Positions 33,674 to 64,000 of a stretch of DNA of 64,000 nucleotides are shown here, piece by piece. The first letter of the stretch is position 1; every line of letters starts with the position of its first letter. The notes beneath the pieces are model-generated. The model worked only from the letters and a program-made list of their open reading frames with translations, was not told where the DNA came from and did not search any database. The stretch is from Trichococcus pasteurii. Lineage in GTDB: Bacteria > Bacillota > Bacilli > Lactobacillales > Aerococcaceae. Both the position numbers and the translations under genes were made by a program. The stretch covers positions 1 through 64,000 of the forward strand of contig NZ_FONM01000013.1 in assembly GCF_900112935.1 (NCBI RefSeq), read 5' to 3'.

Positions 33674-34534
33674 TCAAATCAGATTTTTGATGCCGTCGCA
33701 GATCCTTTTTGCGACGATTGGATTGTTCATCGTGTAGATATGGATGCCGTCCACGTCATGCGCCAGCAGATCGACAATCTGATTTATCGCATAGGCCATA
33801 CCGGCATCGAAAAGTGCCTCTTTGTTGTCTTCGTATTTGTGCATCACTCGGGAAAACTTTTCCGGCAAAGAGGCCCCGCAGAGCGTCACCATCCTTTCGA
33901 TCTGCGCCTTGTTGATGACTGGCATGATGCCCGCCTCGACCGGCACGTGCATACCCGCGATTTGGATATGTTCCTGAAAGGAATAGAAGGCATTGTTGTC
34001 GAAAAAAAGTTGGGAGATCAGATGCTGCACTCCGCTGTCCACCTTCTCTTTCAGGTGGGCGATGTCCTCGACTTTGTTTTTCGATTCCGTGTGGCATTCC
34101 GGATAACAGGCGCCGCTGATGGAAAAATCACCGTATTGCCTGATGAATTTGACCAGATCGCTGGCATACCGGAAGTCTTTTTTCGCTTCTACTGCCGGGT
34201 TTGTATCCCCTCGCAAGGCAAGGATGCTGTCGATGTCAGCAGCCCTCAATTCCTCCAACAATTCACAGATTTCGAATTTCGAATGATTCAGACAAGTCAA
34301 ATGCACCAGCGGATCGATCCCATATTGATGTTTGATGCGTTTTGCCAATTCAACGGTTTGGTTATTCGTATGGCTTCCGCCGGCGCCAAAAGTGACGCTG
34401 ATGAAATCAGGGTTCAGTTCGCTCAGGATCGCCAGTGTCTCGTCGATGTTCTGGATCGCTTTATCGCGCTTCGGTGGAAAAATTTCGAAGGAAAGCACCG
34501 GTTTTTTCTTTTGGAATTTGGATTCTATTTTCAT
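33674..34534 (-). CDS. metF: Methylenetetrahydrofolate reductase
   Basis: A 286-residue flavoprotein TIM barrel that reduces 5,10-methylene-THF to 5-methyl-THF, the methyl donor for MetE. Motifs: LSFEIFPPK (catalytic glutamate), ISVTFGAGGS, ALRGDTNP (substrate aspartate) and HLISQLFFDNNAFY. It lies 16 bases after metE with GAGGTG before its ATG. The gene pair makes the final methylation step of methionine synthesis self-contained. Confidence 0.95.
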   Translation of the reverse strand: MKIESKFQKKKPVLSFEIFPPKRDKAIQNIDETLAILSELNPDFISVTFGAGGSHTNNQTVELAKRIKHQYGIDPLVHLTCLNHSKFEICELLEELRAADIDSILALRGDTNPAVEAKKDFRYASDLVKFIRQYGDFSISGACYPECHTESKNKVEDIAHLKEKVDSGVQHLISQLFFDNNAFYSFQEHIQIAGMHVPVEAGIMPVINKAQIERMVTLCGASLPEKFSRVMHKYEDNKEALFDAGMAYAINQIVDLLAHDVDGIHIYTMNNPIVAKRICDGIKNLI

Positions 34535-34550: not shown

Positions 34551-36827
34551 TCAGACCGAAACTGCGTCTTTGATGATTTTCGCCGCCGCCACAAGATTGG
34601 CCAGACTTTCTTTCGTTTCTTTGATGCCTCTGGTTTTCAGTCCGCAGTCGGGATTGATCCATAGGTTTTCCTCGTCTATCTTCGTCAGCGCGTTCTTCAA
34701 TACCGCCACCATCTCTTCGACACTCGGCACACGCGGCGAGTGGATGTCGTATACGCCCGGTCCGACTTCCGTTTCGAATTGGTTCGCCTTCAAGGCATCG
34801 ATGATCGTCAGTTTGGAACGGGAGGCTTCGAAAGAAATGACGTCCGCATCCATGTTATCGATGTCCTGTACGATCTCCTCGAATTCGCTGTAGCACATAT
34901 GCGTATGCACCTGCGTCTCCGGTCTCACGCCACTGTGGCAAAGGCGGAATGCCGGAATCGCCCAATCAAGGTATTCGCTAGCCCATTCTTCTCTGCGGAT
35001 CGGCAACTTCTCCTTCAGAGCCGCTTCATCGATTTGGATGATCTTGATGCCCGCCGCTTCTAAGTCCTGAACCTCTTCGCGAATCGCCAGACCGATCTGG
35101 AAAGCCATCTCCCTCAGCGAAATGTCCTCACGCGGAAACGACCAATTCAGGATCGTCACCGGACCAGTGAGCATCCCTTTGACCGGTTTGTCGGAAAGAC
35201 TCTGCGCATATTCCGAATAGAACACGGTAATCGGGTTTTCGCGTCGGATATCACCGAAGATGATCGGTGGCTTGACGCATCTTGTTCCGTAGGACTGTAC
35301 CCAGGCTTTTTCGGTAAATACGTATCCCGCCAGGTTTTCTCCGAAGAATTCAACCATGTCGTTGCGCTCAGATTCGCCGTGGACCAGCACATCCAGCCCC
35401 AGTTCCTCCTGCAGATCGATGCATTCTTTGATAAATCCTTTGATGTTTTCATCATATTCGGCTCTGCTGATGTCGCCTTTGCGGTATTTGCTGCGGTTCT
35501 GCTTGACTTCCCTCGTCTGCGGGAAGGAACCGATCGTCGTTGTCGGCAACAGACCCAGTTGCAGTTTCTCCTTTTGGATCGCTCTCCGTTTTTTTCTCGG
35601 AACGTTTCTGACAAAATCTCTTTCCGTCAAGCTCGCCACGGATGCTTGCACGTGCTTGTCTTCATAGACCCGGTCCGCTGAAAAGACTTGCTGATTCGCA
35701 AGATAGGCTCCCTGCTCTTCATATCCGGAAGTGCCGATCAATTCCGTCAGTTCTTTGATTTCCTGCAGTCTTTCCTTCGCGAACGCGAAATACTGGGATA
35801 CTTCATCAGGCAAACTCGTCTCATTTTCCAACGTGTAAGGAACATGCAACAGCGAACAGGAAGTGCTGATGACGATGTCGTTGCTGTACTTTTCCAGCCC
35901 ATTGACCAAGTCGATGACCTTTTTGTAGTCGCTTTTCCAGATGTTTTTCCCGTTCAGGACGCCGGCAAACAAAGTTTTATCAGCCGGAAAGCCATGTCTT
36001 TCCAAAAGTTCCACGGTTTGTTTACCTTCGATGAAGTCAAGGCCGATGCTATCGAAGTCGAGCCCAATCACTTCTTCGTAGCTGTCCCGGATATCCCCGA
36101 AGTAGGTCTGCAGCAATACTTTTACATTGCCTTTATGCGCCAGCACTTTTTCGTATATGGCAGTGAATAGCGCGACATCCGCTTTGGACAAATCGGTGAC
36201 CAAACTCGGTTCATCAAACTGCACCCACGCCACACCTTGCTCATTGAACCTATTGAGTATTGCGATATAGGCATTTGCCACTTGGTCGGCAAAATCATTT
36301 ATTGTTTTGGAGCCTTTGTATTTTGCCAGTTTCAGGAAAGTGAATCCGCCGATGATTACCGGTTTCGTCAGCACGCCGATTGCTTTGGCTTCTGCGTACT
36401 CGGTAAAAGGCTTGTCGCCCACCAATTTAATTTCGGTATCGTCGAACAGTTCCGGAACCAAGTAATGGTAATTGGTGTTGAACCATTTCTTCATCGCCAA
36501 CGCTTTGACGTCGCCTGCTTCGCCCTGATAGCCGCGCGCAGCCGCAAAGTAAGTGTCGCGCTCGTTCAGTCCCAGCTGTCTGTAGCTGTTGGGCAGCGCG
36601 TTCAACAAGACCGTCAGATCCAACAAGTTGTCGTAATATGAAAAATCATTCGAAGGGATGTGGCTGATGCCGGCTGCTTGCTGCAGATTCCAGTGCATTA
36701 TCTTAATACCCTTTGCGACTTTCTCCAACTCTTCTACTGAAATTTCTTTTCTGAAATATTTTTCGGATGCGAATTTCAATTCGCGCCCTTTGCCTACTCT
36801 TGGAAAACCGATTAGTGAACTGTTCAT
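34551..36827 (-). CDS. metE: Cobalamin-independent methionine synthase
   Basis: A 758-residue zinc enzyme transferring the methyl group of 5-methyl-THF (triglutamate) to homocysteine. Two TIM barrels: the N-terminal one begins SSLIGFPRVGKGRELKFA, and the C-terminal one has TTTIGSFPQTREV, the zinc ligands H and C in HTHMCYSEF, a glutamate in SFEASRS and a final cysteine in NPDCGLKTRG. I chose the ATG at 36827, which has GGAGGAA at good spacing; an ATG five codons earlier lies inside that site. Confidence 0.96.
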   Translation of the reverse strand: MNSSLIGFPRVGKGRELKFASEKYFRKEISVEELEKVAKGIKIMHWNLQQAAGISHIPSNDFSYYDNLLDLTVLLNALPNSYRQLGLNERDTYFAAARGYQGEAGDVKALAMKKWFNTNYHYLVPELFDDTEIKLVGDKPFTEYAEAKAIGVLTKPVIIGGFTFLKLAKYKGSKTINDFADQVANAYIAILNRFNEQGVAWVQFDEPSLVTDLSKADVALFTAIYEKVLAHKGNVKVLLQTYFGDIRDSYEEVIGLDFDSIGLDFIEGKQTVELLERHGFPADKTLFAGVLNGKNIWKSDYKKVIDLVNGLEKYSNDIVISTSCSLLHVPYTLENETSLPDEVSQYFAFAKERLQEIKELTELIGTSGYEEQGAYLANQQVFSADRVYEDKHVQASVASLTERDFVRNVPRKKRRAIQKEKLQLGLLPTTTIGSFPQTREVKQNRSKYRKGDISRAEYDENIKGFIKECIDLQEELGLDVLVHGESERNDMVEFFGENLAGYVFTEKAWVQSYGTRCVKPPIIFGDIRRENPITVFYSEYAQSLSDKPVKGMLTGPVTILNWSFPREDISLREMAFQIGLAIREEVQDLEAAGIKIIQIDEAALKEKLPIRREEWASEYLDWAIPAFRLCHSGVRPETQVHTHMCYSEFEEIVQDIDNMDADVISFEASRSKLTIIDALKANQFETEVGPGVYDIHSPRVPSVEEMVAVLKNALTKIDEENLWINPDCGLKTRGIKETKESLANLVAAAKIIKDAVSV

Positions 36828-37262
36828 TTTGAATTCCTCCATTTCATTTTTTTGGTTCCTGCTATTTCAAGTCCCTTCCCAGTCATCAGGGAAAACTGCG
36901 AACATGATGTCTTACCACTGTCCCGATAGTTGCTGATCAGCGTCTATCAGAAGGTTGCTCCAGTATGCCATGGAAAATGGATATAGGATAACACTTAATA
37001 AATATACGCAGTTATAGATTAATACTATACGTGCTCCGAACTCCGGCGAAGCCTACGTTCACAAACAGATCCGAATGCTGGATGCACCAGCAACTTATCT
37101 GGGTTGAACATTATGTCCGGAATAAGCTTGTTTTCGCATGAAATCAATGGTACTTTTTCCCAGATTTAAACGAAAGCCTTTTTAAATTCCGTAATCAGCC
37201 TATAATAAAGCTACACACATACTGCCTTTAAAAGAATAAGACCCAAACAAAGGAGACTACTT
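36828..37262. other. metE / HAD phosphatase intergenic region
   Basis: 435 bases. The metE leader (minus strand) has possible hairpins CTGATAG/CTATCGG with an inner GCTGATCAGC palindrome, and TTCCC/GGGAA. The region also holds a MET-box-like palindrome (37013-37029) and the HAD promoter -10 TATAAT at 37201-37206. I found neither a T-box nor a SAM-I core here. Confidence 0.6.
37013..37029. promoter_or_regulatory. MET-box-like palindrome upstream of metE
   Basis: On the minus strand TATAGTATTAATCTATA is an inverted repeat (TATAG/CTATA, 7-base centre) of the same length as the streptococcal MtaR/MetR box TATAGTTTSAAACTATA and similar at both arms. It suggests a LysR-type methionine regulator acts on metE; binding is inferred. 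Confidence 0.5.
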
Positions 37263-62759: not shown

Positions 62760-62929
62760 TGGGGGTGCGTCGACTATTCCACACGACCATTGCTACTGAA
62801 GCTCAAGACAACTCACTTTTGTCGACTGAACAGACGCTGACGCTTCTCCGAAAGCCAACTGAGGCAGCACCCCCAACCGAAAGAAGACGCCCTTGGCCAA
62901 GCGCGTCTTCTCTCGCATTCTATGATCGC
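62760..62929. other. Spacer with inverted repeats after AraC gene
   Basis: GGGGGTGC (62760-62767) and GCACCCCC (62867-62874) are inverted repeats about 100 bases apart. AGAAGACGC (62883-62891) and GCGTCTTCT (62904-62912) form a terminator-like hairpin without a strong T-run. A frame across the region has no ribosome binding site. Confidence 0.5.
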
Positions 62930-63298
62930 TTATTTCCACTGGCTCTCCACAAAATCCCATAACACGACGACATGATTGATTTCCGGATCCCGCGCGGCAT
63001 AGACCAATGTGACATCGGTCGCTTCCAACTGTTTCAGGATCTCCGCTACAGCAGCAGCTGTCGGCGGGTTCGTCAACATTTCCTCTTCATAGCGTTCTTT
63101 GAAGGCGGTGAATTTTTCGGGATCGTGGTCGAACCATTTGCGCAAATCCGGCGAAGGCGCGCTGTCTTTCAGCCATGCATCCAGTTGCGCGGCTTCCTTT
63201 TTCACACCCCGCGGCCACAGCCGATCAACCAGGATCCGGAAGCCATCCTTTTCCGCGGGGGCTTCGTAGATGCGTTTCATCTTCAGTTCCAAATCCAT
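62930..63298 (-). CDS. DUF488-family protein (YeaO-like)
   Basis: A 122-residue protein of the DUF488 family: IYEAPAEKDGFRILVDRLWPRGV near the N-terminus (described in parts), WLKDSAPSPDLRKWFDHDPEKF in the middle, and LVYAARDPEINHVVVL towards the end. The arginine and aspartate pattern is conserved but the biochemical role is unknown. GGGAGG precedes the ATG at 63298. It starts 20 bases after the upstream coiled-coil protein gene and so lies under the SAM-I riboswitch. Confidence 0.88.
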   Translation of the reverse strand: MDLELKMKRIYEAPAEKDGFRILVDRLWPRGVKKEAAQLDAWLKDSAPSPDLRKWFDHDPEKFTAFKERYEEEMLTNPPTAAAVAEILKQLEATDVTLVYAARDPEINHVVVLWDFVESQWK

Positions 63299-63318
63299 TC
63301 CTCCTCCCAATTGCTTCG

Positions 63319-63597
63319 TTAAAACTGGTCCACCAGTTCCATCATCTTATCCACTTGTACCCGCTCCAGGTAAAGGTGCTGCTGCAACTTGGCGATTTCT
63401 TCCTCAAGCCGATGTACTTCCACTACTTTGGCCAGCAGTTCCGTTTGATAGTTCTCCTTACCCAGCTTAAGCGCTTCTGCAATGGCAGCCTTTTGCTGTT
63501 TGTACTGATGATAGAGCATAGCCTCGGCTTGGCTTTTTGGGCCGCCTGCAGCTTCCATTCTTTCGCAATGTTCGAATTGTTCTTTTGTCATTGTCAT
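63319..63597 (-). CDS. Small coiled-coil protein under SAM-I riboswitch control
   Basis: A 92-residue, mostly helical, hydrophilic protein starting MTMTKEQFEHCERMEAAGG; residues about 50-85 (ELLAKVVEVHRLEEEIAKL and after) look like a coiled coil. I chose the ATG at 63597 because GGAGGG lies upstream. No signal peptide, membrane segment or catalytic motif. It is the first gene after the riboswitch and is followed closely by the DUF488 gene. I recognise no family. Confidence 0.78.
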   Translation of the reverse strand: MTMTKEQFEHCERMEAAGGPKSQAEAMLYHQYKQQKAAIAEALKLGKENYQTELLAKVVEVHRLEEEIAKLQQHLYLERVQVDKMMELVDQF

Positions 63598-63630
63598 CGT
63601 CTTTCCCTCCAGATTGTTTTTTTTGAAAAC

Positions 63631-63657
63631 AAAAAACCCTTCTTTAAACAAGAAGAG
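63631..63657 (-). terminator. Riboswitch expression-platform terminator
   Basis: On the minus strand CTTCTT (63655-63650) pairs with AAGAAG (63644-63639), followed by GGTTTTTT. The same 5' arm, CTCTTCTT, can pair instead with AAGAAGAG (63682-63675) in the P1 strand of the aptamer, forming an antiterminator. This is the classic OFF-switch arrangement. Confidence 0.88.
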
Positions 63658-63676
63658 TCGGGAATGTCGCTTTGCT

Positions 63677-63790
63677 CTTCTTATCTCTCAGATTGCTCTG
63701 CAGGATTTAGCACCGTGCCGCTGCGTTCGCGCAGGGGTCGGTTGCTGAGATGTCATCGGGCCAGTCCCTCGATCTCTCTTGATAAAGAAG
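63677..63790 (-). promoter_or_regulatory. SAM-I riboswitch aptamer (S-box)
   Basis: On the minus strand the conserved core reads in order: P1 strand CTTCTTTATC, AAGAGAG, GAGGGACTGGCCCGATGA, CAGCAACC, a P3 hairpin around GCGAACGC, GGTGCTAAATCCTGCAGAG, and CTGAGAGATAAGAAG closing P1. All SAM-I hallmarks are present (AGAGA kink-turn side, GGGACTGGCCCGATGA, GGTGCTAA-TCC). S-adenosylmethionine binding should stabilise P1, free the terminator and lower expression of the two downstream genes. Confidence 0.96.
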
Positions 63791-63809
63791 TTATTTAATT
63801 TTCAAATAT

Positions 63810-63838
63810 ATTATGTCATACCCTTGCGCAAAATTCAA
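63810..63838 (-). promoter_or_regulatory. Promoter of the SAM-I riboswitch transcript
   Basis: On the minus strand TTGAAT (63833-63838) and CATAAT (63810-63815) with a 17-base spacer, about 20 bases before the aptamer. Confidence 0.65.
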
Positions 63839-64000
63839 CTAATCGCGAATCCATATATTTTATTTTTTAACTACATCTGTTCTACACACTTCCTTAGTAT
63901 ACTGAAGAAGGATCAAGCGATCCCGCGTTGCTGATCATTTCTTTTGTCCGATCAACAAGGCTGAAACAGCCGCATAAACTATAGTCAGTATACATAGGAA

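Follow-up and report, generated by a model that had tools for sequence, protein, structure and literature searches.

The 64,000 nucleotides of Trichococcus DNA analysed in this work, referred to here as the window, carry near one end a SAM-I leader followed by two small genes, all on the minus strand. In the direction of transcription these are arranged as promoter-like site, 21 nt, aptamer, antiterminator, terminator, Shine-Dalgarno (SD) site, 92-aa open reading frame (ORF), 20 nt and DUF488 ORF:

63810..63838, minus strand: promoter-like site TTGAAT-17-CATAAT, extended -10, sigma-A-type (consensus scan)
63678..63788, minus strand: SAM-I (S-box) aptamer, full length (RF00162, 78.5 bits)
63646..63686, minus strand: antiterminator, 63686-63675 with 63657-63646, 12 pairs (sequence pairing, leader alignment)
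63635..63659, minus strand: intrinsic terminator hairpin of 10 pairs, then a T run (sequence pairing, leader alignment)
63319..63597, minus strand: ORF of the 92-aa orphan protein, family F1, with SD and ATG (ORF list, omega, structure model)
62930..63298, minus strand: 122-aa DUF488 ORF, 'inactive DUF488-N3' subclade (PF04343, PF22752)

The SAM-I leader and its ligand

An earlier note had read the interval 63319-63838 as a complete SAM-I riboswitch with aptamer, antiterminator and terminator. A check of this interval against RF00162 gives a match at 63678-63788 on the minus strand, well above gathering (78.5 versus 44.4 bits, E 8.7e-17, positions 1-108 of 108; cmscan of the 64-kb window). It is the sole Rfam match at gathering in the whole 64 kb, and nothing else in Rfam matches the interval 62800-64000 at E≤1. 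The canonical pocket motifs are present (AGAG in J1/2, GAGGGA, GCAACC and GGTGC), by a crude check in which a motif was counted anywhere in the aptamer and which is backed by the RF00162 alignment. The 5' arm of the antiterminator (63686-63675) draws on bases of the 3' strand of P1, and the strand CTCTTCTT is common to antiterminator and terminator, making the two stems mutually exclusive; the reading of a complete switch is thus borne out. Among 12 distinct leaders from Trichococcus and one genome of another genus (G323), 100% of cells are paired in the terminator, 93.1% in the antiterminator and 80-100% in the aptamer helices. Two of 42 aptamer pairs change on both sides, and none in the antiterminator does, because its sequence is nearly invariant. 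Covariation support for the window's leader is slight, the sequence being too invariant for it to prove either the antiterminator or the terminator.

The promoter-like site was the one site found where shuffles led us to expect 1.4. The Trichococcus leaders aligned have it in the same position, which supports it despite this chance expectation; its position, 63838-63810, also accounts for the coordinate at which the earlier note ended the locus. A 207-aa open frame on the plus strand (63175-63798) runs antisense to nearly the whole unit and is probably a chance frame.

A second RF00162 match, scoring around the threshold, can be found in 11 of the 13 Trichococcus genomes:

L002:1501-1636 (G000:C29:23367-23502), also L028-L037: second SAM-I-like element (RF00162, 43.7-45.0 bits)

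In the window's own genome this element precedes an Orn/Lys/Arg decarboxylase gene (Pfam-confirmed). Its J1/2 is altered (AUUAAUAG) and GCAACC has an extra base, and it fits the published spermidine riboswitch. Excerpts of PMC10853860 describe SAM-I variants in Trichococcus and others, with the variant before ldcC of T. ilyis assayed. According to the same excerpts, 1 mM SAM strongly triggers termination by a 'consensus SAM-I riboswitch' of T. ilyis, on which 1 mM spermidine has no effect. The T. ilyis genome (G009) has exactly one canonical RF00162 match, which lies before F1, and the consensus riboswitch in these excerpts is therefore, by elimination, most probably the F1 leader. SAM-dependent termination in vitro has thus very probably been reported for a leader orthologous to that of the window.

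The 92-residue protein and its DUF488 neighbour

The earlier note could not place the 92-aa protein, and our searches agree, with no Pfam or NCBIfam match above cut-off. A PDB sequence search reached a best E of 0.8, and the best PHROG values were 0.0088 with this protein and 0.0019 across all 13 members, matches that are weak and inconsistent between members. An AlphaFold2 model built with 11 sequences from the genus has a helix at 5-16, a turn at GGPKS and a second helix at 23-91 (pLDDT 94.1, pTM 0.55); a search of PDB and BFVD with this model returned no fold match at E≤0.001, a long single helix being uninformative in such a search. GGPKS and AMLYHQY are invariant in the F1 alignment. Among 11 of the 13 Trichococcus copies, 43 of 55 pairs have a finite dS and give a median omega of 0.31, so coding is supported and selection on F1 is purifying.

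F1 is present in 12 of 13 Trichococcus genomes, with 13 copies in all, and the genome that lacks it (G008) is 51% complete. Every one of the 13 copies begins about 80 nt behind the end of a SAM-I aptamer (71.4-87 bits), and a 14th copy, in another genus (G323, L200), has its own SAM-I. The survey for SAM-I followed by homologues of the 92-aa protein, which the earlier note had proposed, therefore finds all 14 F1 copies behind SAM-I. In 11 of the 12 Trichococcus genomes with F1 the unit occupies one conserved place, the exception being T. palustris. The record MUZD01000006.1 (L052), titled Sedimentibacter sp. SX930, holds an F1 that is 98% identical to the window's and is probably a mislabelled Trichococcus record.

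The second gene is a DUF488 protein, as had been stated (PF04343, E 3.7e-33; PF22752 'inactive DUF488-N3', E 1.1e-37, 129.9 bits versus a cut-off of 27). It begins 20 nt after the 92-aa gene and in the window is likely to be co-transcribed with it. We know of no function for the inactive N3 subclade. The 11 Trichococcus genomes that match DUF488 have one such gene each, always behind F1. For 6 of the 13 F1 copies in the genus it starts within 40 nt of the end of F1; for another five the distance is 0.7-1.1 kb, and a different gene or unrelated sequence lies between. In three genomes a 184-206-aa gene occupies this gap (L045:1247-1801, minus strand, and the same place in L046 and L048); the L045 copy has no Pfam match. 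No DUF488 match was found in the incomplete genome G008 or anywhere in the genome of T. palustris (G010), where both F1 copies have another location, so that F1 can do without DUF488. G323 has two DUF488 genes, one of which belongs to another subclade (PF04343, E 7.1e-32) and immediately precedes the SAM-I-F1 unit, and four genomes with the related family F2, introduced below, have a single DUF488 each, away from F2. The unit is SAM-I plus F1, and DUF488 is secondary to it, with some linkage. Of the pair put forward in the earlier note as a joint candidate, the SAM-I-F1 link is constant and holds up, whereas DUF488 lies apart from F1 in several genomes and has no match in T. palustris. A DUF488-HTH fusion described in an excerpt of PMC12704722 was judged not relevant to the window's DUF488.

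With an orphan and a DUF488 protein as its genes, the operon holds no methionine gene, in keeping with the claim that the controlled genes have no known methionine role. The methionine genes of the window lie elsewhere:

34551-36842, minus strand: metE
33674-34534, minus strand: metF

These had been said to lack a SAM-I, and indeed no Rfam element reaches gathering at metE-metF in the scan of the 64-kb window. At E≤1 the region has just a sub-threshold DUF805b match inside metE (16.9 of 35.6 bits), and the 26 T-box matches of the genome include none on the window's contig.

Genes behind SAM-I across the Lactobacillales

A profile of F1 was searched in 295 Lactobacillales genomes. Besides five sampled Trichococcus genomes it matched four proteins of 107-110 aa (F2) in one genus of another family, with E 1.0e-4 to 2.2e-4 and similarity centred on GGP[KR][SC]xAEAM; all four F2 genes lie directly behind SAM-I (59.6-67.3 bits). 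Matches in 19 further genomes (E 0.0017-0.05) were taken as chance, and two of these loci, when inspected, had no SAM-I. In the F2 leaders (L083-L086) the coding region begins 8-9 nt after the aptamer, with an SD (AGGAGG or AGGGGG) that shares bases with the 3' strand of P1, so the expression platform of the window is not usable for F2; from this arrangement, SAM-I would probably act on translation there.

RF00162 itself is found in 88 of the 295 genomes, 36 of them in one taxonomic family (f7) with 3-7 copies each. Downstream genes were read outside f7, at 48 of 54 places in 44 of the 52 genomes; the other six places all score below cut-off. SAM-I before orphan genes is not a one-off of the window, since in the Trichococcus family SAM-I mostly precedes orphan small proteins. 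This family is represented by 76 genomes, 41 with RF00162, and its 61 matches comprise 11 of the spermidine type and 50 canonical ones. Small orphan ORFs, three of them decayed, follow 45 of these 50: F1 in 14 cases, F7 in 20 (two decayed), F6 in 4, F3 in 3 (one decayed), F4 in 2 and another orphan of 135 aa in 2. The other five precede metK (3) or no recognisable gene (2). Beyond the Trichococcus family there are 15 places above cut-off, of which 12 precede small orphan ORFs (F3 4, F5 3, F4 1, F2 1, singletons 3) and the others an amino-acid permease, a NIL-domain ABC transporter and metK; of the 14 places below cut-off, eight were read, four of them preceding metK and four other small ORFs of about 105-113 aa. 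Pfam confirms one metK (L145) and both transporters, the permease and the ABC type, while the remaining metK and family assignments were read by eye, with profile searches backing those in the order sample. Ten representatives of the small proteins have nothing above cut-off in Pfam or NCBIfam.

The association can also be read from the side of the proteins. When profiles were searched back against the 295 genomes at E≤0.001, SAM-I preceded 9 of 9 F1/F2 matches, 15 of 16 F3-F6 matches (the odd one scoring 23.8 bits) and 12 of 13 F7 matches (the odd one a fragment). F3-F7 had been found via SAM-I in the same genomes, and their figures therefore mean that there are no SAM-I-free relatives, not that the link was discovered independently. 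Profile comparison with hhalign joins F1 with F2 (96%, E 2.6e-9) and F5 with F6 (95%, E 2.1e-8), and F3 with F4 (57%) and F4 with F6 (35%) weakly. A single superfamily for all the small proteins was considered and rejected, F1/F2, F7 and the remainder failing to join; by these comparisons they form at least three groups without detectable relation. The F3-F6 profile, searched against PDB sequences, matched nothing convincingly (best E 0.0042, over 27 positions).

Some details of individual leaders can be added. GCAACC and GGTGC are absent from all three F5 leaders (L152, L154 and L164), and P3 of L154 reads GCAGCA/TGTGC; the F5 aptamers may be a SAM-I variant that binds its ligand with altered affinity or has an altered specificity. 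Upstream of the F5 units in L152 and L164, about 290-525 nt before the aptamer end, is a conserved 74-75-aa ORF (MAYVIAKKxGxNGSVAYTYDS...). Elsewhere in the order, an SMK element and T-boxes are described for L. paracasei in an excerpt of PMC6004538.

Several comparisons show that unrelated small proteins are swapped behind one leader and that the units move horizontally. In one genome (G027) the F6 and F7 leaders share 91% identity (by blastn, 89% over 209 bp); their homology extends from the -10 region as far as the start codon, where it breaks off. In a leader tree, which carries no support values, the F6 leader of G027 nests among F7 leaders and the F7 leader of G043 stands beside the F6 leader of G219. 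The two F1 copies of T. palustris share a 584-bp block of 95.9% identity that runs from the -35 box to a point 52-54 bp beyond the stop codon and is flanked by unrelated sequence, and the F1 leader of G323 is 92% identical to one of them. By eye, one T. palustris copy lies behind two serine-recombinase-like genes and the other before an HsdR-like gene (L049 and L050). F7, together with a convergent serine-recombinase-like ORF (also by eye), is 86-90% identical over 1.6-2.1 kb in four genera. In L201, L202, L195 and L163 the F7 units of different genera become homologous 17-22 nt before the aptamer, as though the element ended within the SAM-I promoter.

F3 provides a plasmid-borne case. The plasmid search with F3 returned two Enterococcus faecium plasmids and a weak Microvirga record (E 0.4). 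The first plasmid, NZ_LR134110.1, carries an intact F3 unit (SAM-I 81.4 bits, L186) that is 93.7% identical over 635 bp to one in a Trichococcus-family genome, the leaders being identical where compared; on the second, NZ_CP110295.1, the match is without SAM-I and begins shortly after an IS1216 transposase gene. Just upstream of SAM-I/F3 in NZ_LR134110.1 (L186:6268-8222), the annotation has a Y-family DNA polymerase and a small hypothetical protein. A plasmid origin of the small proteins in general was set aside, as the F1 of T. palustris, F7, F6 and F4 had no match in the plasmid search and, of the families searched, F3 alone matched the E. faecium plasmids. Among Pfam neighbours, recombinases (3), resolvases (2) and phage integrases (2) are within the first 25 of 175 families in the unit set, and none of these is among the first 25 of 212 families in the control set, where control singletons would not show.

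A proposed role for the unit, and known systems

In the explanation that we consider probable, a SAM-I OFF switch of the transcription-attenuation type drives F1, which would be one of several exchangeable and unrelated small proteins carried mostly on single-gene mobile cassettes. With ample SAM, the aptamer would keep its P1 stem, the terminator would form and transcription would halt before the 92-aa gene. As SAM falls, the 3' strand of P1 could pair with CTCTTCTT, allowing the polymerase to read into the 92-aa gene and then DUF488. F1 may be a small coiled-coil, protein-binding effector needed only in SAM shortage, its helix-turn-long-helix with the invariant head acting through the binding of a partner, and DUF488, where adjacent, would be a co-expressed passenger or helper. 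F1/F2, F3-F6, F7 and the singletons would then be interchangeable small proteins placed under SAM-I control in the Lactobacillales. What the sequences themselves show is the switch with its platform, its link to the gene, and the exchange and movement of units; from small size, swapping and the helical model we infer that F1 may be an accessory effector responding to low SAM. The earlier suggestion of an undescribed function in sulfur or SAM metabolism is therefore upheld in part: the switch does stand before genes without a methionine role, but the exchange of unrelated proteins behind one leader, and their mobility, argue for accessory effectors rather than core sulfur enzymes. Against a mobile cassette, the Trichococcus unit keeps to one conserved place in 11 of 12 genomes. 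A wider proposal, which we put forward as a tentative possibility, is that SAM-I in the Lactobacillales is the control of a mobile cassette system whose interchangeable small effectors, unrelated to one another and served by one SAM-sensing leader, are released only when SAM is exhausted, by starvation or by a SAM-destroying invader, with F1 as a domesticated member.

SAM-I elsewhere controls methionine and SAM genes, and the small proteins could accordingly be metabolic helpers that tune methionine uptake or SAM-consuming enzymes, the cassette being part of ordinary methionine/SAM homeostasis. In line with this, metK follows 3 of the 50 canonical elements in the Trichococcus family and 1 of the 15 above cut-off outside it, where two more precede the permease and the transporter; two genomes of a single genus also encode a Cys/Met-metabolism PLP enzyme past F7, at distances of about 1.1 and 2.1 kb, though in G045, one of this pair, a convergent gene intervenes. 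The swapping of non-homologous proteins behind one leader, their horizontal movement and the lack of a methionine gene in the window's operon speak against such a role, which we regard as rather unlikely. The high conservation of the F1 leaders (mean column identity 91% of nucleotides, versus 68% of residues in the F1 proteins) would suit a different arrangement, in which the terminated SAM-I RNA acts in trans and the ORF is incidental, as with SreA and SreB of Listeria, which are trans-acting terminated SAM-I RNAs. An omega of 0.31 over 43 pairs, the presence of SD sites and the conservation of protein families between genera make this very improbable.

The small protein might instead be switched on by loss of SAM, through phage SAM-degrading enzymes or starvation, to halt growth or prevent restriction for as long as methylation fails. 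An OFF switch, small exchangeable orphans and mobile elements would all be expected of such a guard, and some units lie near restriction-modification-like genes (by eye; the T. palustris copies, L162 and L174). However, in a PADLOC comparison of 20 unit regions from outside Trichococcus (146 ORFs of at least 110 aa) with 18 control regions (148 ORFs; one further control region of 10 ORFs was left out), the neighbour tallies have no clear defence excess among the families displayed. Within the first 25 of 71 unit and 54 control families, the generic ABC-ATPase-type mad3 was counted 11 versus 5 times, and the families displayed include single restriction-modification genes in the unit set and two SNF2-type proteins in the control. 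F1, F2 and F7 are also without a relative in viral collections: tblastn against 50,697 phage records found no match to T. palustris F1 (E≤0.01) or to F2 (E≤10), and the IMG/VR scans (A1, A3 and A5) confirmed no relative. With the unit at a single stable locus in most Trichococcus, we think a guard function distinctly improbable. A phage origin was likewise rejected, given the empty phage and IMG/VR searches with F1, F2 and F7 and the weak, inconsistent PHROG matches.

SAM-I is among the best-studied riboswitches, and its targets are thought of as methionine and sulfur genes; here 45 of the 50 canonical elements in the Trichococcus family stand before small orphans, several on mobile elements. 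No account of SAM-I controlling such small proteins was found in the open-access literature (titles and abstract starts of the PMC open-licence set), and its use mostly before orphan small proteins in swapped, mobile units is, as far as that literature shows, new. The ligand, SAM, can serve as a ready handle on the role of these unannotated proteins. More generally, the units suggest that accessory genes can make use of a metabolite switch as a plug-in regulator, and a SAM-I upstream is by itself poor ground for labelling a gene 'methionine metabolism'.

Compared with known systems, the second gene of the window is a clear member of the DUF488 family (PF04343; PF22752), a family that adjoins SAM-I only in Trichococcus, with another subclade beside one G323 unit. 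The spermidine riboswitch before ldcC of T. ilyis, as presented in excerpts of PMC10853860, has its scaffold and genus in common with the window element. It differs in an altered J1/2 and P3 loop and a polyamine gene downstream, none of which is found in the window element, whose SAM pocket is canonical. With the attenuating SAM-I (RF00162) of met, cys and SAM genes in Bacillus and others, the window shares the aptamer, pocket motifs, OFF logic and antiterminator/terminator pair. The usual regulon of methionine, cysteine and SAM genes is replaced here by a 92-aa orphan and a DUF488 gene; control of the former genes is usual for RF00162, not defining for the RNA class. The RNA of the window is an ordinary SAM-I and the unusual part is its regulon, the related units being, unlike the usual SAM-I systems, mobile and swapped.
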